This document shows, in pieces, positions 47,464 to 57,937 of a stretch of DNA of 64,000 bases; the first letter of the stretch is position 1; each line of letters opens with the position of its first letter. The notes beneath the pieces were generated by a model that saw nothing but the letters and a program-made list of their open reading frames with translations, had not been told where the DNA came from and searched no databases. This stretch comes from Nitrospirota bacterium (GTDB taxonomy: Bacteria > Nitrospirota > Thermodesulfovibrionia > Thermodesulfovibrionales > UBA9159). Position numbers and translations under genes: made by a program. The stretch lies in the NCBI GenBank assembly GCA_023475105.1, contig JAMCWJ010000052.1:1-64000 (forward strand), read 5' to 3'.

Positions 47464-48453
47464 ATGACCTTAGCGAACTTTCTTGATTCCTACATCGGCA
47501 GGTATATTGTCCAGGCGTGCTGCCACTCCCTGGTCGCAGCGCTCGTCGCAGACAGGGCTATCCAGGCCTGGAGAATCACCGATCCGCTCGTACAGCAGCG
47601 GTTCAGCCTGATCGTCGTGCTCTTTCCGATCGTTTCCTTCCCGGCCTACCAAATGATAAACCCGGAGAGGGGATCGCTCTCTTTCAGGCTGGAAGCGCTC
47701 TTCGACAGCGGCAGGTGGCTGAATATGGAGTTATGGGGAATAATTCCGTTGAATGTCGTCTTCGTCTGTATCCTTTCCGTCACCGCCTTTGTCTTTCTTT
47801 TCCAGGAGATGATCCCCGTTGTGAAACATACCGTTGAATCGCGGGGGCCGGCATCCCCGGAGGAAGAACCCGTTGATCCGGTCGTGGGCAAGGCGCTCGA
47901 GCATCTCCCCGGCGGAATGCCCCGGGTCTCCGTGATAGAAGAAGATGAGTTCATCCTCTTTTCCTCCACGGGCAGAAGCCCGACGGTCTTCCTCTCGAGA
48001 GGCCTGATCGACCTGCTGAACGGCGAGCAGCTCAGGGCCGCGGTCGCACACGAGGCTGCACACATTGCGAGGAACAGGCGTCCTCTGCTCATCATCGTGT
48101 TTCTTATCCGAATCCTCATGTTCTTCAACCCTGTGGTCCTCGTCGAATTCAGGCGCATCATCCAGGAAGAGGAAAAGGTGTGCGATGACATCGCCGTCCG
48201 TTTCACACACAAACCCCGGGCGCTGGCCGAAGTCCTGAGGAAATTCAACTCTGAAAGGGAAGACCTCAGCCTCGAAACGATAAAGAAGCCCTCTGCGCTC
48301 GGGGCCGCCCTCGAAGACTACAGCCATAACGTGCATCTTGAAAGCAGGATCAAGAGACTCGAAGAGGGGCCGCCGCACAGGACGGGGGGAGAGTGGGTGA
48401 AGTTCCTCCTCACGCTTGCGGTGATTGTTGCGATCAACTATTTTGTTGTTTGA
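47464..48453 (+). CDS. M56 family (BlaR1-like) membrane metallopeptidase
   Basis: TM helices; zinc motif AAVAHEAAHIARNRRPL; EEEKVCDDIAVRFT. Confidence 0.83.
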   Translation: MTLANFLDSYIGRYIVQACCHSLVAALVADRAIQAWRITDPLVQQRFSLIVVLFPIVSFPAYQMINPERGSLSFRLEALFDSGRWLNMELWGIIPLNVVFVCILSVTAFVFLFQEMIPVVKHTVESRGPASPEEEPVDPVVGKALEHLPGGMPRVSVIEEDEFILFSSTGRSPTVFLSRGLIDLLNGEQLRAAVAHEAAHIARNRRPLLIIVFLIRILMFFNPVVLVEFRRIIQEEEKVCDDIAVRFTHKPRALAEVLRKFNSEREDLSLETIKKPSALGAALEDYSHNVHLESRIKRLEEGPPHRTGGEWVKFLLTLAVIVAINYFVV

Positions 48454-48468
48454 TGAAAGGGGTGAAGC

Positions 48469-48996
48469 GTGCGTAAGAACGTTCGGGGGTTCCTGTATTT
48501 TGCGGTGACCATCGCGATCCTCGTCGGGGTGCTCCGGGTCACGAACTGGCTGCCCGAGGTGCTCCAGGGGGGCATGATGAAGAGTTACGGCAGCATCGAA
48601 GACGTGAAATCGGACCTGGGCGTCAGGGACATTTATGTTCCTTCTTACTTCCCCCAGAATCTTGCCTGGCCCCCTTCGAGGATCCTGGCGCAGTCGAGAC
48701 CCTTTCTTGCGGTCGTGATGGAGTTCACGCAGGGGAAGACCGGCGACGTCGCCCTCGTCATATCCCAGGCCGCAGACAAACGCTTCGCCCCGGACGGAAC
48801 GATAGCGATACTGCAGATAAAAGACCAAGTGAATTATACCCTGAAGGGGCGGACTGCCCTGCTTGAAGTCGGGACATGCGGGAACGAAATCCCCTGCAGC
48901 AGGATTTCCTGGGACGAAGCGAACTACAGGATCAGTCTGACGATAAAGGCGCCCCCTTTCGAACTGGTGAAAATCGCGGACAGTATGCTGCGCTGA
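48469..48996 (+). CDS. Membrane-anchored protein with DUF4367-like C-terminus (tentative)
   Basis: GTG start; one N-terminal TM; C-terminal WDEANYRISLTIKAPPFELVKIADSML; coupled to the M56 gene. Confidence 0.6.
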   Translation: MRKNVRGFLYFAVTIAILVGVLRVTNWLPEVLQGGMMKSYGSIEDVKSDLGVRDIYVPSYFPQNLAWPPSRILAQSRPFLAVVMEFTQGKTGDVALVISQAADKRFAPDGTIAILQIKDQVNYTLKGRTALLEVGTCGNEIPCSRISWDEANYRISLTIKAPPFELVKIADSMLR

Positions 48997-49115
48997 CCCG
49001 CGCCGCTCAAGATGCCGGACCATGGCCGGAAGGCGAACCCTCGCGCCGGTCAATCCCTTTGACTTTCATTATTTTTTTAGGATCTTCCTCTCATCCCCGT
49101 AGGACAATTTTCCCC

Positions 49116-49144
49116 TTGAAATAGGAACTTCTTCCAATTATATT
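49116..49144 (+). promoter_or_regulatory. Sigma70-type promoter (TTGAAA-N17-TATATT) upstream of redox cluster
   Basis: TTGAAA 49116-49121, TATATT 49139-49144. Confidence 0.5.
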
Positions 49145-49201
49145 CCCTGCGAACCTCTGCTATAAATAAATTAGAAGAGAAGAGAAAGGAGGTGGAATAC
49201 G

Positions 49202-49546
49202 ATGTTCAGGTACAAAGGAGGACGAAAGGTTGGAAAGGGGACCTACTGGAACATTTCGAACGGAAGCCGGATCGACATTGCCGATGAAGGGACGCTTCCG
49301 GGGGACGCCAACACGACGTACACCAGATTTCCACCGGGTATTGTGCTCCTTGCAGGCCCCGCAATAGGACTGTTGTATGTCATCGCCATGCCTTTCATCG
49401 CACTCGGGACCATCGCGGCCCTGATAGGGAAAAAGCTTGTGACCGGACTTGCCGGTCTGCTCGGGAATCTCGTCTCATTCGGGTGGAGACCGAGTGAGGC
49501 CAACCTGACAGGCAAGAAGAAGGGGAAAAAGAAGACACCCAAATAA
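49202..49546 (+). CDS. Small membrane protein, redox-cluster associated (paralogue 1)
   Basis: Hydrophobic core LLAGPAIGLLYVIAMPFIALGTIAALIGKK; C-terminal SFGWRPSEANLTGKKKGKKK; SD AAAGGAGGTG. Confidence 0.75.
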   Translation: MFRYKGGRKVGKGTYWNISNGSRIDIADEGTLPGDANTTYTRFPPGIVLLAGPAIGLLYVIAMPFIALGTIAALIGKKLVTGLAGLLGNLVSFGWRPSEANLTGKKKGKKKTPK

Positions 49547-49586
49547 GCGGAAAGGGCACGACAGGCCCTTGGGAGAGGAGGATACG

Positions 49587-49982
49587 ATGAACACGCTTTA
49601 CGACTATTTGACCCATATCAAGGGGGTAGAGTATCTGATCTCGGTTGCATTCATCGCCGTATACATCGTGTATGCGGAGGTGCTGAAGCCAAAGCCTTTC
49701 AAGACCCTGAAGGAAGGGGGAAGGGAAGACCTGGAATTCGTGAAAAGTCACCGGGACGCTGCCAGGACGACCATCAAGAGAATCGTCGCGGCCCCGTTTA
49801 TCGGTCTGGGCTACATCGTGATGCTTCCCTTTGCCTTCGCCTTTGCCGTAGGCGCCGCCGCGCTCAACGGCGTACTGGGTCTGGCAGGGAGAAGCGCATC
49901 CTTCGGCTGGAGGCCCACTGAGGCATATCTCGCCGGCAAAAAGAAAAAGAAGGAAGAGAAAAAAGAGGATGAAACGAAATAA
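49587..49982 (+). CDS. Small membrane protein, redox-cluster associated (paralogue 2)
   Basis: Two hydrophobic segments; C-terminal SFGWRPTEAYLAGKKKKKEEK, matching paralogue 1. Confidence 0.75.
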   Translation: MNTLYDYLTHIKGVEYLISVAFIAVYIVYAEVLKPKPFKTLKEGGREDLEFVKSHRDAARTTIKRIVAAPFIGLGYIVMLPFAFAFAVGAAALNGVLGLAGRSASFGWRPTEAYLAGKKKKKEEKKEDETK

Positions 49983-50080
49983 CCTGAATACCTGTACCGA
50001 AGGAAACATCGGCGGTTCCCCGGGAGGAGATGCCGGGAAGGTCGAAAGCCGCGGGAACTGCCGAACAGGAGGCACCTTAT

Positions 50081-50548
50081 ATGAAAAAAATGATTCTTAT
50101 AGTCCTCATTGTCAGCGCTCTTCTCTCCTTTGCCGCCTCACTGTATGCGGGAAGCCCGGCAAAGGCCCCGGATGTGGTCACCCTTGACACGCTGAAGGAC
50201 AAATACGAGCCTGTTCTGTTCACCCATGAGCGGCATACCGGCCTCGCGGGAAACTGCGGCGTCTGTCATCACGAACACGGCAATAACGGAAGTCTTCCGT
50301 GCAAAAGCTGCCATTCCCTTGACGCTGCAGCATTCAAAAACTCGGTTACTCATAATTTTAGTGCCTGCAAGAGTTGTCACGGCGCATATTCTCCCGAGAA
50401 CCCCGGGATTCCCGGACTCAAGGTTGCATATCATACCCAGTGCTTCAAGTGCCACCGGGGAATGGGTGATGTCGGCAAAGGGCCTCAGGGCTGCACTGAG
50501 CTCTGTCATGCGAAAAGAGACGTGACGATGAGCAAGAAATCCCAATAA
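50081..50548 (+). CDS. Small periplasmic multiheme cytochrome c (class III/c7-like)
   Basis: Signal peptide; CGVCH, CKSCH, CKSCH, CFKCH plus CTELCH (CX3CH). Confidence 0.85.
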   Translation: MKKMILIVLIVSALLSFAASLYAGSPAKAPDVVTLDTLKDKYEPVLFTHERHTGLAGNCGVCHHEHGNNGSLPCKSCHSLDAAAFKNSVTHNFSACKSCHGAYSPENPGIPGLKVAYHTQCFKCHRGMGDVGKGPQGCTELCHAKRDVTMSKKSQ

Positions 50549-50571
50549 TCCTTGTTTTAAAGGAGGCTTTT

Positions 50572-51582
50572 ATGGCGAAGACACCTGAAAAACACGTTGT
50601 AGACGAAACGAGCTCCGCACCGAAAGACGGCGGAAACGGCCTTAAGGAAGCCGCCCCAGGGAGGATTTCCCGGAGATGCTTTCTGGGGACCGTGACCGCG
50701 GCCGGGGCTTCCGCCCTCATCAGCCCTTCCGCGCTGAACGCTGCAGGGGAGTTTGCCGGCTGGCCGAACCGCTTCGGCATGCTCACCGACCTGACCGCAT
50801 GTGTGGGGTGCCGCAGCTGCGAGAAGGCCTGCAACGAAGCGAATAATCTTCCCAACCCCTCGACTTCCTTCGATGACCCGTCGGTTTTCAACGAGGTGAG
50901 GAGACCGACGGCAAAGGCATATACCGTCGTCAACAGGTACCAGGACCCCAAAGACAAAAACAAGTTCGTCTACCGTAAGATACAGTGCAACCATTGCAAC
51001 GAACCGGGATGCGCCACCGCCTGCCCGATACACGCGTACAATAAGACGCCCGAAGGGCCCGTCACCTACAACGAGGACCTCTGCTTCGGGTGCAGATACT
51101 GCATGACTGCCTGTCCCTTCTATGTGCCGGCCTATGACTACGACAGCGCACTCGAACCGAAGATCGTGAAATGCACGATGTGCTACGGCAGAGTGAAGGC
51201 CGGAGGAATCCCGGCTTGTGCAGAGACCTGCCCGACGGGGGCCATCACCTTCGGCAAGAGGGAAGACCTCCTCAAGCTCGCAAGGGAAAAGATCACAAAA
51301 AACCCCGACAGGTATATCGATCACATTTACGGCGAAAAGGAAGCGGGAGGGACAAGCTGGATGTACATCTCAGGGGTCCCGTTCGGTCAGCTGGGCTTTC
51401 CGACGAACATACCGAACAAGCCCCTTGTCGAAGAAACGAAGGGGTTCCTTTCGGCAGTGCCTCTGGTCCTTACCGTCTGGCCCGCCCTCTTCGGAATGTG
51501 TTACGCGGCTCTGCGCCACAGGGATGAAGTGGAAGAGGAAAAGGCCAAATCCAAGAAGAATGAGGAGGAGAAAAATGGCTAA
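50572..51582 (+). CDS. Tat-exported, membrane-anchored 4Fe-4S ferredoxin-like electron transfer subunit
   Basis: Tat-like ISRRCFLGTVTAAGASALI; CVGCRSCEKACNEAN, CNHCNEPGCATACP, CFGCRYCMTACPF, CAETCPTGAI; C-terminal TM. Confidence 0.9.
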   Translation: MAKTPEKHVVDETSSAPKDGGNGLKEAAPGRISRRCFLGTVTAAGASALISPSALNAAGEFAGWPNRFGMLTDLTACVGCRSCEKACNEANNLPNPSTSFDDPSVFNEVRRPTAKAYTVVNRYQDPKDKNKFVYRKIQCNHCNEPGCATACPIHAYNKTPEGPVTYNEDLCFGCRYCMTACPFYVPAYDYDSALEPKIVKCTMCYGRVKAGGIPACAETCPTGAITFGKREDLLKLAREKITKNPDRYIDHIYGEKEAGGTSWMYISGVPFGQLGFPTNIPNKPLVEETKGFLSAVPLVLTVWPALFGMCYAALRHRDEVEEEKAKSKKNEEEKNG

Positions 51583-52813
51583 CGGAACCATCGCCAGAAC
51601 AGACAATTTCCGATCCTGGTTCATGGAAAAACTCCTGATGGGCATGACTTGGCCCGAATACATGAGGACCCTGATTACGCCCTTCAACGTGATAGCCGCA
51701 GGCATACTGGCCATAGGATTGCCCCTTATCGCAATGAGGTTCTATATCGGGTTGTCCCTGGTGACGCACAGCTCGAACGAGTATCCCTGGGGCCTCTTCC
51801 TCGGCTGGGGGCTCTTCGGGGGCGTGCCCCTGTCCGCCACCGGGTTTGTCATGGCCACCGCCTACTATATCTTCGGTTTCAAAAGATACCACCCAATCGT
51901 GAGGCTTGCCGTGCTCACCGGACTCCTGGGCTATTTCTTCGCGGTCGTCTATCTTCTCACCGACCTCGGCAGGCCGTGGCGCATCTACTACCCCATGGGC
52001 GTGGCGTTCGGCACCGCCTCTGTACTGTTCCTTGTAGCATGGCACGTCGCCACCTACCTCACGGTCCAGCTCGTCGAATTCAGCCCCGCCGTTCTGGAGT
52101 GGCTGAAGTCGCGCAGGGTCCGCAGATGGGCGCTCAGAGTGACCATCGGAATGACCATCGCAGGCATCATCCTCTCGACGCTCCACCAATCGGCCCTCGG
52201 CGCCATGTTCCTTCTCGCACCGGGGAAGGTCCATCCGCTCTGGTTTTCCTCGTATATACCGGTCCTCTACCTGAGTTCGAGCGTCTACGCGGCCCTCTCG
52301 ATGGTGATAGTGGTGAGCACGCTCTCTGCCCGTTTCCTGAAAGACAAATGCGGCAAGACCTTTCTCTCGAGCCTGCCCAAACTGACGCTGGGACTCGGCA
52401 AAGGCGCGGCCATCGCCATATACGTGTACTTTGCGATAAAGGTCATCGCCCTTACCCATGACAGCAACTGGCACCTTCTGAACACGGGCTACGGCTACTG
52501 GTATCTCGTCGAGATATTCCTGCTCGTCCTCGCCCCCGCCCTCATCTACAGCATCGGGTTCAAGAAACGCAGCGTCAATACGGTGAGGTTTGCGGCTTTT
52601 CTCGCGGTCTTCGGCGTGGTCATGAACAGGATCAACATCGCGATCATTACCTTTAACTGGAACCTTCCCCACCACTTCGCGCACATTATTCCTCCCTGGA
52701 AAGAAGTGGCGGTCGTGCTCTGCATCGCGACGATCCACGTGCTTGTGTTCCGCTGGATCCTGAACAGGATGCCCGTTCTGAGAGAAGAATCCGACTATGA
52801 AGACGCTCACTGA
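51575..52813 (+). CDS. NrfD/PsrC-like polytopic membrane quinone-interacting subunit
   Basis: Starts MANGTIARTDNFRSWFMEKLLMGM; many TM helices; WGLFLGWGLFGGVPLSATGFVMATAYYIF; overlaps preceding stop. Confidence 0.9.
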   Translation: MANGTIARTDNFRSWFMEKLLMGMTWPEYMRTLITPFNVIAAGILAIGLPLIAMRFYIGLSLVTHSSNEYPWGLFLGWGLFGGVPLSATGFVMATAYYIFGFKRYHPIVRLAVLTGLLGYFFAVVYLLTDLGRPWRIYYPMGVAFGTASVLFLVAWHVATYLTVQLVEFSPAVLEWLKSRRVRRWALRVTIGMTIAGIILSTLHQSALGAMFLLAPGKVHPLWFSSYIPVLYLSSSVYAALSMVIVVSTLSARFLKDKCGKTFLSSLPKLTLGLGKGAAIAIYVYFAIKVIALTHDSNWHLLNTGYGYWYLVEIFLLVLAPALIYSIGFKKRSVNTVRFAAFLAVFGVVMNRINIAIITFNWNLPHHFAHIIPPWKEVAVVLCIATIHVLVFRWILNRMPVLREESDYEDAH

Positions 52814-53007
52814 TACGGATACGCGCCTTACACCAGGGCCGGCGGAGTCCGGTCCCGGCAGGGGTATTCACCGGAACGGAGCGAACGCCTCCGCGGTTTT
52901 GCCGGGCCGCGGCACGCTTCTTCCGGCGTCCGGGAACGTAACTGCATGCATTAGGGTATCGTTCTGCTTTCCCTCGGTATACTTTAAGTGCTTGCAAGGG
53001 GGTATCT

Positions 53008-54456
53008 ATGCAAAAAATAAGAAGAATACTCGTTGTTTTGATACCGCTGTTGCTTGCGGGCGCCGCTCTCACTGACGGGGCGGACGCCAAAGATATCGTC
53101 CTGTCCGACGAGGCCGGAACTTGTCTGGGATGCCACGGAAAGCAGGGAATAGTGAAGACCTTCGAAAACGGGGAATTGCTTTCGGCATATGTAAGCCCGG
53201 AGAAGTTCGCAGCTTCGGTCCATAATTTCCTGCCCTGCTCCGGATGCCATAGCGATTTTTCATCGGACAATCATCCATCGAGGAGGTTCAGAAGCAAGAA
53301 GCAGTACCAGATAAAGACCTCCCGGGAATGCAGACGCTGCCATGGGGACCAGCAGCTGAAGGAGAACCCCATCCATGCCGGCCTGCTCCGTGCGGAAGGA
53401 GAGGGAAAACCCGCTGTCTGCACCGAATGCCACGGCGCTCACTCGGTCAGTCCGATAAAGGGAGGCAAGGTCTTCGCCAGTGAGACGCAGTACTGCCTCG
53501 GCTGCCATGGGCATCCTCTCTCCATGGCTTTCAGAAACGGAGAACAGCTGTCCCTCTCCGTAGACAAGAAATTGCTCGATACGTCGGTACATGGCAAGCT
53601 CAGCTGTTCGGACTGTCATTACGGCTTTTCCTCCGAAGAACACCCGCAGCGGATCTTCAAGAGCGGAAGGGAATACACGCTCGCCTCTTCGGAGAGCTGC
53701 AGACGATGCCATTTCGACAAGTACAGCAAGACGATCGAAAGCATCCATTACACCGTGCTCAGCAAGGGGAACCTGAAGGCCCCGGTCTGCACCGATTGCC
53801 ACGGCGCGCACTCGATATCAGGGGGAAGCAGGGAGAGATCGCTCACCACAAAGAGGTGTCAGCGCTGCCATCCGGCAATATACGATGTGTACGCGAGAAG
53901 CATCCACGGCAAGGCCCTCTTCGATGAGAAGAACCAGGATGTCCCCGTCTGCATCGACTGCCACAAAGCGCACGACATATTGAATCCCCACACGCTCGAT
54001 TACCGGGAGAGGATCCCGACCATGTGCAGCAATTGCCACGCGAACAAGGCGATCATGGGGAAATACGGTCTCTCGACGGACGTGGTGAAGACCTATCTCT
54101 CGGACTTCCACGGCGTGACCCTCGGCTTTTACCGGAAGCAGCGCGAGTCCCTCGATAAACCCGCCCGGCCGATCGCCGTCTGCACCGATTGCCACGGCAC
54201 CCATAACATAACCAGCACGCGCGGCACCGATGCGGCAGTCCTGAAGGCAAACCTGGTGCAGAGATGCCAGCAGTGCCACAAAGACGCGCCGAGGGATTTC
54301 CCCAACACCTGGTTGTCCCATTACGAACCGAACATGAAAAGCGCGCCCCTCGTGTTTCTGGTGAATCTCCTCTACAAGATATTTATCCCGGTGCTTGTGG
54401 TGGGTTTGTTCCTCCAGATCCTGCTGCATATATGGCGCTATGCGGTGGACAGATGA
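53008..54456 (+). CDS. Thirteen-heme c-type cytochrome with C-terminal TM anchor
   Basis: 13 CxxCH motifs counted by eye (CLGCH, CSGCH, CRRCH, CTECH, CLGCH, CSDCH, CRRCH, CTDCH, CQRCH, CIDCH, CSNCH, CTDCH, CQQCH); C-terminal PLVFLVNLLYKIFIPVLVVGLFLQILLHIW. Confidence 0.93.
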   Translation: MQKIRRILVVLIPLLLAGAALTDGADAKDIVLSDEAGTCLGCHGKQGIVKTFENGELLSAYVSPEKFAASVHNFLPCSGCHSDFSSDNHPSRRFRSKKQYQIKTSRECRRCHGDQQLKENPIHAGLLRAEGEGKPAVCTECHGAHSVSPIKGGKVFASETQYCLGCHGHPLSMAFRNGEQLSLSVDKKLLDTSVHGKLSCSDCHYGFSSEEHPQRIFKSGREYTLASSESCRRCHFDKYSKTIESIHYTVLSKGNLKAPVCTDCHGAHSISGGSRERSLTTKRCQRCHPAIYDVYARSIHGKALFDEKNQDVPVCIDCHKAHDILNPHTLDYRERIPTMCSNCHANKAIMGKYGLSTDVVKTYLSDFHGVTLGFYRKQRESLDKPARPIAVCTDCHGTHNITSTRGTDAAVLKANLVQRCQQCHKDAPRDFPNTWLSHYEPNMKSAPLVFLVNLLYKIFIPVLVVGLFLQILLHIWRYAVDR

Positions 54457-54469
54457 AAAGGAGCGAAAG

Positions 54470-55228
54470 ATGAAAGAGAAAGAGACGGGTATGGGAGAGA
54501 GGATAAGGAGATTCAGCACCTCCCTCATTGTCGAACACTGGGTGCACGTGTTTGCTTTCGTGGTCCTCGTCGTGACCGGGATATCCCAGAAATTCTTTTC
54601 CCTCGACCTTTCCCGGTGGCTCATCCTGAAGCTCGGCGGTATCGATAACGTCAGACTGATCCATCGCTGCGCCGGGATTGTCTTCATGGTCGCTGCGTCA
54701 GTGCATATTGTCGGCGCATCCGTGGGTATCGTCCTCAAAAAGAGACAGCCGTCAATGGTCATCACCAAGAACGACCTAACCGACGCCGTTCGCGATCTCC
54801 GGTACTACCTCGGGGCCGAAAATTCTCCCGCACTGTGCGACCGTTACACCTACAAGCAGAAATTCGAATATTGGGGCATTCTTACGGGGGGTCTTCTGAT
54901 GATCGCTACGGGGCTTGTCCTGTGGTTCCCCACCTTCGTGGTCGGATTTCTTCCCGGACAGGTCATTCCCGTGGCAAAGGCGCTCCACTCCAACGAGGCC
55001 CTCGTCATTATCCTTCTCATAGCGGTATGGCATATCTATAACTCCATATTCAGTCCCGAGGTCTTCCCGCTCGACACGAGTATCTTTACGGGGTATATCT
55101 CGAGAGAAAGAATGTCCCGTGAGCATCCCCTCGAGCTGATGCGGATCGAAAACCGGACCCAGGATGAGGCGGGCAGGAAACGCCGCAGGAAGGCCCGCAA
55201 GCTCGAAACGGAGGAAATGTCCCGATAA
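54470..55228 (+). CDS. Cytochrome b (b561/formate dehydrogenase gamma-like) membrane subunit
   Basis: VEHWVHVFAFVVLVVTGISQKF; RLIHRCAGIVFMVAASVHIVGA; ILTGGLLMIATGLVLWFP; HSNEALVIILLIAVWHIYN (His ligand candidates). Confidence 0.85.
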   Translation: MKEKETGMGERIRRFSTSLIVEHWVHVFAFVVLVVTGISQKFFSLDLSRWLILKLGGIDNVRLIHRCAGIVFMVAASVHIVGASVGIVLKKRQPSMVITKNDLTDAVRDLRYYLGAENSPALCDRYTYKQKFEYWGILTGGLLMIATGLVLWFPTFVVGFLPGQVIPVAKALHSNEALVIILLIAVWHIYNSIFSPEVFPLDTSIFTGYISRERMSREHPLELMRIENRTQDEAGRKRRRKARKLETEEMSR

Positions 55229-55254
55229 ACGGCGTCCCGGCGCCAAAATTCGTT

Positions 55255-55397
55255 ATCAAGAAAACCCGATACCGCGTGAGGACGGCATTCTCTCTCATTC
55301 TCGCTTCGCTCCGAGGCGCCGGGCCGCCTCACCCCAAAAGGTGAGGCGATACGGCCCGCTGAAAACCATTCGAATGCATCCTCACGCAGAGTTGATG
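55255..55397 (-). repeat. Interspersed MITE/REP-like repeat, copy B (full, inverted relative to copy A)
   Basis: Reverse complement CCATCAACTCTGCGTGAGGATGCATTCGAATGGTTTTCAGCGGGCCGTATCGCCTCACCTTTTGGGGTGAGGCGGCCCGGC...GAATGCCGTCCTCACGC. Confidence 0.85.
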
Positions 55398-55464
55398 GTG
55401 GATTTGGGTGCGGCTCTTCGCTTGACATTCCTCCTAGGGTGGTATAACGTACAAATAAAGAGAT

Positions 55465-57288
55465 ATGCGAAGAAGAATAACCTTTTCAGTTATCCTCGGC
55501 ATATTCACTATTCTGATCGGTCTCGGTGTCGTAAGCTACCTGAGTGTCAATGACAGCATCCAGCGTTCCCTCGGAAACCGTCTCGCCCTTGCAAATATCA
55601 TCGGAAAATATTTCGACTACGTGCTCGAAACGAACCTCACGAGACTCTACGACATCTCGATCTCCGGCAGAATCGACTTCGAGGACAATGACTGGGAGCC
55701 CGAAAAAAGGGCGCTCAAGGCCGCGTATGAGTACTCCATATTCACCGACAGGATTTTCCTTATGGACGTCTACGGAAACGTCGTGATGACGTATCCTCAC
55801 AAGGAGGGAGAAAAGGTGAACCTCCTCAGTATCCCCTATGTGAGCAGGATGCTCACGGAAGGCAAGCCGGTCATTTCCGATGTCTATACGATCGATGCGA
55901 CGCAGAGAAAAGTGATCTTCGCCTTCGTCCCGCTCAAAAATAAGGAAGGAAAACCGATCGGGGTCGCCGGGGGGGAGATCAATCCGACCAATTACACCTT
56001 CACCAAGATCATCAAGTCGATTCCGGTCGGCACGCACGCCACTATCGAGCTCGTCGACAGCCACGGCACCATTATCGCTTCGAGCGACCCGAAACGGATT
56101 CTGACGAGCAGCGACCATAACAAGTTCCTCGGCAATCTGATAGCGGCAAGGAAAAGCACCGTCGGCACCTGCCACAGATGCCACACCGAGGAAGACCCGG
56201 ATCAAGTCAGGACGAACGACATGCTCGCCTTTGTTCCGCTCTCCGCAGCTCCCTGGGGCATCTCGGTGAGAGAACCGCAGGATATCGTCTTTTCGCCTTC
56301 CACAAAATTGAAAAAGGGCTTTTTCGTCCTGACACTCTTGTCCCTGGTGACCGCCCTGATCCTTGGGATCGGGCTGAGCAGGGGCATTGTGAAGCCGATA
56401 CAGTCGCTCATCAACGCAACGGAGAGGATCGCGAAGGGGAATCTCACGGAACCGGTCAAAACGTCGAGCAGGGACGAGATCGGCACCCTCGCCCGGAGTT
56501 TCGACGCCATGAGGGTAAAGCTTCACGAATCCCTCGAAAGCATCCACCGCCATAACATCGAGCTCGAAAACCGCGTGATCGAGAGGACGCAGCAGATCCA
56601 TCAGAGCCGCCGCAAGGTCGAGAACCTGCTGAAGAAGCTGATTTCCTCTCAGGAAGAAGAGCGGAAAAGGATCGGCCGCGAGCTCCACGATGAGATCCTC
56701 CAGGATATTTCCGCCTTTCTCATCAAGCTCGACATCTGCAAACTCTATCCCGACAAGGTCACCGGCGAAAAGATAGAGGAGATGAGACAGATAGCCCTCA
56801 AGACGATCGACGGCATCCATAACGTCATCCAGAACCTGCGCCCGACGATCCTCGATGACCTCGGCCTCGAAGCCGCCATCAAATGGCTCCTCGACAAGCA
56901 TCTCGGTGAAAAGGGGATACGCTACCACCTTACGATAGACATGGAGGCGAACCGGAGATTCGACCCGCGCATCGAGATCACGCTCTTCAGAATCATCCAG
57001 GAATCGCTTTCGAATATCGCGAGGCATGCGGATGCAAAAAATGTGTTCATGATATTGAAGACCGAAAGGAATTCGGCCATCGTCGACATAGAGGATGACG
57101 GGGAAGGGTTCGATGTGCATTCCGCGCTCCGTCACGCAACGGACGGAGGGAGAGGGCTCGGGATCCTGGGGATGAAGGAAAGGGCCTCGCTCCTCGACGG
57201 AAAGCTGGAGGTATGTTCGTTGCCCGGGCACGGGACCAAAATAAGCCTGAAGATTCCTTTGACACCCCTGGAGGTAACAAATGCCTAA
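55465..57288 (+). CDS. NarL-family sensor histidine kinase with predicted extracytoplasmic Cache-like domain containing a CxxCH c-type heme motif
   Basis: N-terminal TM, sensor region with TCHRCHTEED, second TM, HAMP-like, RELHDEILQDISAFLIKLDIC (HisKA_3), HATPase GLGILGMKERASLLDG. Confidence 0.9.
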   Translation: MRRRITFSVILGIFTILIGLGVVSYLSVNDSIQRSLGNRLALANIIGKYFDYVLETNLTRLYDISISGRIDFEDNDWEPEKRALKAAYEYSIFTDRIFLMDVYGNVVMTYPHKEGEKVNLLSIPYVSRMLTEGKPVISDVYTIDATQRKVIFAFVPLKNKEGKPIGVAGGEINPTNYTFTKIIKSIPVGTHATIELVDSHGTIIASSDPKRILTSSDHNKFLGNLIAARKSTVGTCHRCHTEEDPDQVRTNDMLAFVPLSAAPWGISVREPQDIVFSPSTKLKKGFFVLTLLSLVTALILGIGLSRGIVKPIQSLINATERIAKGNLTEPVKTSSRDEIGTLARSFDAMRVKLHESLESIHRHNIELENRVIERTQQIHQSRRKVENLLKKLISSQEEERKRIGRELHDEILQDISAFLIKLDICKLYPDKVTGEKIEEMRQIALKTIDGIHNVIQNLRPTILDDLGLEAAIKWLLDKHLGEKGIRYHLTIDMEANRRFDPRIEITLFRIIQESLSNIARHADAKNVFMILKTERNSAIVDIEDDGEGFDVHSALRHATDGGRGLGILGMKERASLLDGKLEVCSLPGHGTKISLKIPLTPLEVTNA

Positions 57289-57937
57289 GACCACGGTACT
57301 CATCGCCGACGACCATGCCCTCGTGAGGGAAGGGATTATCGCGTTCCTCAAGCTGTGCGACGATATCGAAGTCGTTGCGGAAGCGTCCGACGGCCTCGAG
57401 GCCATCGAAAAGGCGAAGAAGGTCAACCCCGACGTCATCCTGATGGACATCGCAATGCCGAAGCTCGGCGGCCTCGAGGCGACACTCGAGCTGAAGAGGA
57501 TAAACCCCGACGCGAAGATCCTGGTCCTTACGCAGTACGATGACAAGGAGTACATCGCGCGCTTCCTGAAGGCGGGGGTATCGGGATACCTCCTCAAGAG
57601 AGCCGTCGGGAGCGAACTCATCTCCGCCATACGGGCGGTGAGCAGGGGCGAATTTTACCTCTTTTCCTCGATCGCATCGAAGGTGGTGGCGGGCTATCTC
57701 GGAAAAGAGAGGGAAGCGGCCGTCGAGGACCCCTACGAAAAGCTTACGGACCGGGAAAAGCAGGTGCTGAAACTGATCGCGGAGGGCTTCACGCACAAGG
57801 AAATCGGCGACATGCTCAACATCAGCACGAAGACCGTCATAGCCCATCAAACCAATATCGGCGAAAAACTCGGAGTGGGCAGCAGGGCCGGCCTCATCAA
57901 ATTTGCGATCCACAGAGGGATTATCAAGATAGACTGA
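57281..57937 (+). CDS. NarL/LuxR-family response regulator
   Basis: REC VLIADDHALVREGI...ILMDIAMPKLGGLEAT; HTH LTDREKQVLKLIAEGFTHKEIGDMLNISTKTVIAHQTNI; overlaps kinase stop. Confidence 0.93.
   Translation: MPKTTVLIADDHALVREGIIAFLKLCDDIEVVAEASDGLEAIEKAKKVNPDVILMDIAMPKLGGLEATLELKRINPDAKILVLTQYDDKEYIARFLKAGVSGYLLKRAVGSELISAIRAVSRGEFYLFSSIASKVVAGYLGKEREAAVEDPYEKLTDREKQVLKLIAEGFTHKEIGDMLNISTKTVIAHQTNIGEKLGVGSRAGLIKFAIHRGIIKID

Follow-up and report, generated by a model that had tools for sequence, protein, structure and literature searches.

We analysed a candidate quinone/cytochrome redox locus in a 64,000-nucleotide stretch of DNA (the window) from a Nitrospirota bacterium of the Thermodesulfovibrionales (GenBank assembly GCA_023475105.1, contig JAMCWJ010000052.1, positions 1 to 64,000). 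A first-pass annotation had described a same-strand run of seven genes at 49116-55228 as the unit. All seven were found as open frames on the + strand. Searches of the locus proteins with Pfam and NCBIfam profiles gave their families, with matches to Fer4_11/HmcB-like, NrfD/HmcC-like, multiheme c and Ni_hydr_CYTB/FdnI-like profiles. Comparison with other genomes confirmed that these genes are conserved and extended the unit to 11 colinear genes at 47464-57937, adding a membrane peptidase, an anchored periplasmic protein (F6) and a sensor kinase with a LuxR-type regulator. The predicted products are, in gene order:

47464..48453, + strand: M56/M48-type membrane metallopeptidase with an HExxH motif (Pfam Peptidase_M56, 38.5 bits, over the cut-off)
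48469..48996, + strand: F6, anchored periplasmic protein of unknown function (no Pfam family match; AlphaFold2 model)
49202..49546, + strand: sm1, small membrane protein with an SFGWRPxEAxLxGKK-type C-terminus (homologous to sm2; family alignment, genome survey)
49587..49982, + strand: sm2, paralogue of sm1 with an additional N-terminal helix (homology, alignment)
50081..50548, + strand: c4, small c3-like periplasmic cytochrome with four CXXCH and one CX3CH motifs (structure resemblance, motifs)
50572..51582, + strand: HmcB-family Tat-type ferredoxin with four 4Fe-4S cluster motifs and a C-terminal transmembrane helix (NCBIfam, alignment)
51575..52813, + strand: HmcC-family NrfD-type quinone-interacting membrane subunit (PF03916; NCBIfam)
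53008..54456, + strand: c13, 13-heme cytochrome c with a signal/anchor and a C-terminal transmembrane helix (13 CXXCH motifs)
54470..55228, + strand: FdnI-type diheme cytochrome b (PF01292; 1kqf_C, E=6e-18 with a profile)
55465..57288, + strand: sensor histidine kinase with a dCache sensor containing a CXXCH motif, HAMP and HisKA_3 (profile matches)
57281..57937, + strand: LuxR-type (GerE) response regulator (profile match)

Loci that carry the HmcC module are called extended here, and those in which sm2, c4, HmcB and HmcC are absent are called minimal. The 13 extended loci examined share one gene order, and some of them have an additional sm copy; the exceptions were L033, which gave no F6 match, and L040, which stops at a contig edge within the kinase gene. 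All seven minimal loci examined lack sm2, c4, HmcB and HmcC; in two of them sm1 was not seen either, and L044 gave no kinase match. In the window the HmcB and HmcC genes overlap by 8 nt, and c13 is separated from the cytochrome b gene by 13 nt.

The c13 protein was found to have exactly 13 CXXCH motifs, all of them invariant across ten aligned homologues, and a C-terminal transmembrane helix, as the first-pass annotation had predicted. Among the other loci examined, extended or minimal, only L018 departs from this motif count. In the same ten homologues exactly 13 further histidines are invariant ahead of the transmembrane helix, and H474 is invariant inside it. These would suffice for 13 bis-histidine hemes, which favours electron transfer over catalysis. 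In the cytochrome b, H23, H65, H173 and H188 are invariant and align to histidines of E. coli FdnI (H18, H57, H155, H169), which we take to be the heme b ligands of the FdnGHI structure. In locus L037 c13 and cytochrome b form one fused frame of 730 aa, and in distant relatives in metagenome-assembled genomes of Betaproteobacteria they appear to be fused too, which supports that the two proteins work together. Locus L018 (and likewise G090:C53) is shortened, with HmcC reduced to its C-terminal part and a c13 with nine hemes; this looks like in-frame deletions and may reflect decay or an assembly chimera. One full locus is followed directly downstream by another pair of multiheme c and cytochrome b and by a nine-heme protein (L009:15116-17527). 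Paralogous larger proteins of 13 to 17 hemes, followed by a cytochrome b-like gene of about 210 aa, occur in the same phylum (L048-L051, L060), and the N-terminus of one of them (L049) resembles the sm domain.

The ferredoxin gave its best NCBIfam match to HmcB (402.8 bits; next HybA, 225) and the NrfD-type protein to HmcC (419 bits; HybB 193, QrcD 65). Both scores lie below the curated cut-offs (HmcB 420, HmcC 550), as do those of the true Hmc operons of the phylum (L052/L053; 341-409 and 408-486 bits), and we therefore rejected the low scores as a sign of non-kinship. By these best matches the two proteins can be assigned to the HmcBC pair at the family level. The small multiheme cytochrome of the first-pass annotation is present as c4, and its motif set could be specified: four CXXCH and one CX3CH, retained in all aligned homologues. 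Among solved structures, c4 resembles the C-terminal domains of the 16-heme HmcA and the nine-heme cytochrome c. The proposed core of NrfD protein, ferredoxin and multiheme cytochrome was thus borne out by homology, synteny and trees.

The synteny search proposed in that annotation was widened from these loci to a survey of 396 Nitrospirota genomes, many of them metagenome-assembled; its co-occurrence counts ignore kinship. In total 64 strong c13 matches were detected in 63 genomes, 35 of them immediately preceded by HmcC in the same orientation and 29 without an adjacent HmcC. Conversely, every one of the 35 close relatives of HmcC (E<1e-150) adjoins a 13-heme gene; 34 were counted by script, and the last (G296:C162) is followed after 60 nt by a shorter 13-heme match. 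This co-occurrence is far beyond chance, where rare co-occurrence had been named as the outcome that would speak against a common module. In the trees, cluster-type HmcC forms one fully supported clade apart from the HmcC of operons with a 16-heme HmcA (assigned by family in two of these and by heme count in the rest), and extended-type c13 forms one clade (98/98) in comparison to the minimal types. The c13 outgroups in Acidobacteria and Chloroflexi, found via the c/b pair, have no HmcC directly upstream. Most simply, the trees point to one recruitment event that brought an HmcBC module into an older c13/cytochrome b operon. The distinct assortment seen in the first-pass annotation holds for the 13-heme/cytochrome b pair; with 29 c13 matches lacking an adjacent HmcC, the whole is better described as two modules that differ in age than as a fixed set of seven subunits. 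The window's HmcC gene pairs in the tree with that of G033, from a different class (91/87), and the gene of G198, from the same family, is placed elsewhere, suggesting that the locus may have been transferred between lineages.

Upstream of sm1 we identified a tandem operator and an inferred promoter:

49100..49113, + strand: operator box A, TAGGACAATTTTCC, 22-23 bp upstream of box B
49122..49139, + strand: operator box B, TAGGAACTTCTTCCAATT, conserved upstream of sm1
49161..49166, + strand: possible -10 element, TATAAA (sequence; similar A/T-rich hexamers at equal offset in other loci)

Both extended and minimal loci conserve box B ahead of sm1, and the spacing between the boxes is 22 or 23 bp in 22 of 24 loci, in both types alike. 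The site at 49122..49139 is the sole match within three mismatches in the window. With at most one mismatch the box B pattern was found in 23 of 55 carriers of the locus as compared to none of 25 related genomes without it, and of the 32 sites at this level 25 immediately precede a gene of the sm or c13 family; weaker matches are partly near shuffle levels when scored on box B alone. Several of these sites front stand-alone sm genes, including one in the host genome (G000:C33:27685), and a near-exact site precedes a five-heme cytochrome gene (L083). The presence of the tandem operator ahead of stand-alone sm genes and c13-type paralogues suggests a regulon. The response regulator gene adjoins the kinase gene in the loci examined whose sequence extends that far, and its product presumably binds the tandem operator. 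Of 18 full-length kinase homologues from loci L028-L047, 12 carry the CXXCH motif in the sensor, so a covalent heme is possible there but not universal.

The small membrane proteins had been described as paired small subunits. sm1 and sm2 are indeed a homologous pair, and sm2 was confined to extended loci among those examined. Because stand-alone sm copies exist under the same operator, a role as specific subunits of the complex is weakened. sm1 gave no Pfam or NCBIfam family match. Across the 20 loci examined, extended and minimal, the peptidase always kept its position, and F6 was retained with it in 19. The AlphaFold2 model of F6 (pLDDT 88.5) gave only weak fold matches, of RseB/PsbP/DcrB type; a peptidase-sensor pair of F6 and the M56-type protein is conceivable.

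The locus was also compared with known systems. CbcL and CbcBA of Geobacter (PMC9129911), SirCD and Cbc4 (PMC11434368), Mco of anaerobic methanotrophic (ANME) archaea, with its multiheme c and diheme b proteins (PMC9012536; quinol or methanophenazine as donor), and Hmc/Nhc of sulfate reducers (PMC4215793) act or have been proposed to act as quinol:cytochrome or quinone:cytochrome oxidoreductases. Hmc is present in Thermodesulfovibrio (PMC5165239), and Nhc is described with a truncated HmcA and without HmcE/HmcF (PMC4215793). The locus is like Hmc/Nhc in that its HmcB and HmcC score level with the true Hmc operons of the phylum and c4 shares homology with the C-terminal domain of both HmcA and the nine-heme cytochrome; as in Nhc (PMC4215793), HmcA can be read as shortened and HmcE/HmcF are missing. 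It differs in lacking a 16-heme or 9-heme cytochrome, and its HmcC belongs to a separate clade and comes together with a two-component system and a 13-heme/cytochrome b module. With five motifs and 48.8 bits against a family cut-off of 640, c4 is not an Nhc nine-heme cytochrome. No HmcE/HmcF-type gene was found among the 11 locus genes; in the Hmc operons of L052-L055 and L061, gene size and position point to such genes. The only match to HmcA (NF045713) in the host genome was c4 itself, with 35 bits against a cut-off of 400, and a canonical Hmc was rejected on the lack of both HmcA and HmcE/HmcF. Qrc was rejected as well, as QrcC and QrcD scored 74 and 65 bits against cut-offs of 400 and 570 and no molybdopterin-type protein is encoded among the 11 genes. 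Alternative complex III has two NrfD subunits (ActC, ActF) and a large ActB; it was rejected with one NrfD gene among the matches on the window contig and no ActB-like gene among the 11.

The c13/cytochrome b pair shares the architecture of a multiheme c protein with a membrane diheme b-type partner with CbcL, CbcBA, Cbc5 and Mco (PMC9129911, PMC11434368, PMC9012536). Going by published descriptions, it differs from these in the 13 hemes and own C-terminal anchor of c13, in a cytochrome b that is mostly a separate gene, and in the HmcBC-c4 module attached in about half of the c13 loci. Cbc4 (CbcSTU) and SirCD likewise combine a cytochrome c, an iron-sulfur protein and a membrane quinol-dehydrogenase subunit (PMC11434368); set against their descriptions, the locus has proteins of the HmcBC subfamily by NCBIfam and an additional 13-heme/cytochrome b module. 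The iron-sulfur/NrfD pair architecture of HybAB of E. coli hydrogenase 2 is also similar, as the HybA and HybB scores above indicate, whereas the locus has no hydrogenase genes and HybB is distant in the HmcC tree. Taken by its sequence, the combination of an Hmc/Nhc-type HmcBC, a CbcL-like 13-heme/cytochrome b module and a dedicated two-component system has no one-to-one counterpart among the named complexes that could be checked, in agreement with the first-pass annotation. No published description of the combined locus was found in the open-access literature searched, with most subscription journals outside its coverage.

The host assembly (3.28 Mb) has dsrA and aprA above their cut-offs and, by inspection, a DsrMKJOP-like locus; judged from these genes the host is a sulfate-reducing bacterium. 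It also encodes a decaheme cytochrome of the OmcA/MtrC family (TIGR03507, 488.8 bits against a cut-off of 209.3). Immediately ahead of this gene lie those for a nine-heme cytochrome and for a 407-aa protein whose porin matches all stayed below threshold. These genes, with the 407-aa protein as putative porin, lie in a row on contig G000:C87 (L103:330-4543) and are likely to form an outer-membrane electron conduit. Other multiheme genes were found in the host by PF09699 matches, which define this inventory. One cluster (L101, G000:C82) holds genes for proteins with 11, 5 and 4 hemes, for an NHL beta-propeller and a PPIase, and for a 676-aa protein that matched no family.

From gene content, synteny, motifs, trees and operator conservation we infer the electron-transfer steps with their direction and partners, and that this regulator acts on this operator. 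The locus probably encodes a regulated menaquinone:periplasmic-cytochrome oxidoreductase of two quinone-linked modules. Cytochrome b, with two b hemes spanning the membrane, would exchange electrons with menaquinone and hand them to c13, which would be anchored beside it and, with potentially all hemes bis-histidine ligated, act as a periplasmic wire. HmcC would provide a second menaquinone site and trade electrons with c4 via the four [4Fe-4S] clusters of HmcB, and c4 could pass them to the c13 wire or to soluble carriers. The sensor kinase may read the periplasmic redox state or a ligand, possibly by a c-type heme, and its LuxR-type partner would turn on the operon from the tandem operator. 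Net flow would run from menaquinol to the periplasm and on to the separately encoded OmcA/MtrC-type outer-membrane cytochrome. In this host the outward direction is the more likely one, given the likeness of the older c/b core to enzymes that run outward and the presence of a candidate outer-membrane cytochrome; the reverse is possible. Since that cytochrome lies beside a putative porin, extracellular electron transfer by the host is plausible.

Several findings weigh against this interpretation. A gap of 194 nt in the window splits HmcC from c13, and HmcBC relatives (HybAB, Hmc/Nhc) can also run inward or across the membrane. As to direction, only the host showed the OmcA/MtrC conduit, outside the locus, and MtrB/PioB-type porins were not enriched in carriers (3/30, 5/25, 6/25). 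Inward flow, in which hydrogen, formate or other periplasmic donors reduce c4/c13 and HmcBC and cytochrome b reduce menaquinone, perhaps in the service of sulfate reduction and standing in for Qrc or Hmc, is unlikely, yet it has several points in its favour. dsrA was found in 59 of 64 carriers as compared to 118 of 332 other genomes (kinship ignored), the host lacks HmcA, and Nhc-like systems have been linked to hydrogen use (PMC4215793). Full-length (Hya-type) group-1 hydrogenase small subunits were present in 25 of 30 extended carriers versus 4 of 25 minimal ones (p=6e-7). However, 16 of 25 non-carriers have the hydrogenase too, and in nearly all hydrogenase loci inspected in extended carriers a b-type cytochrome of its own is adjacent, so that the locus would not be needed; the likeness of the older c/b core to outward-running enzymes also speaks against inward flow. 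We therefore rejected the hydrogenase as a partner of the locus, and its enrichment is probably a lineage signal. A search for QrcD was silent, as was its control, and this absence carries no information.

The other alternatives concern assembly and the role of c13. HmcBC-c4 and c13-cytochrome b could be two independent enzymes that share an operon, a regulator and conditions, which we regard as having close to an even chance, if slightly less. The 29 c13 matches without HmcC, the differing phylogenetic ranges of the modules and an intermodule gap that varies from 5 nt to about 1 kb all fit this possibility, whereas the constant association of cluster-type HmcC with c13 (35/35) and the single clade of extended c13 suggest functional dependence. 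Two separate enzymes would affect the assembly alone and be compatible with the proposed oxidoreductase function. At the other extreme, both modules might form one supercomplex in which NrfD- and FdnI-type quinone sites are joined by a heme wire, an arrangement that we consider doubtful. A catalytic c13, such as an HAO/OTR-like reductase or oxidase with cytochrome b as its quinone link, is very improbable. Hydroxylamine oxidoreductases were its best fold matches, although these were weak (E 1.7e-3, TM-score about 0.3) and came from a moderate AlphaFold2 model built without hemes (pLDDT 77, pTM 0.53), and the invariant histidines are enough for every heme to be bis-histidine ligated; the HAO-like role was set aside because it had the weak fold match alone in its favour.

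If the supercomplex were real, electrons taken from menaquinol at one site could go back to menaquinone at the other, giving a bc1-like proton-motive Q-loop made from unrelated parts. For the oxidoreductase as proposed, two known quinone:cytochrome designs would have been merged into one operon, apparently by a single recruitment. The promoter element and the sensor kinase offer handles for reading the conditions of use, and the locus places two unnamed membrane-protein families, sm and F6, in a testable context. Uncultured Thermodesulfovibrionales are regular in anoxic soils, sediments and the subsurface, and little is known of how they link the quinone pool to the periplasm; the locus would give them a recognisable quinone-periplasm module.

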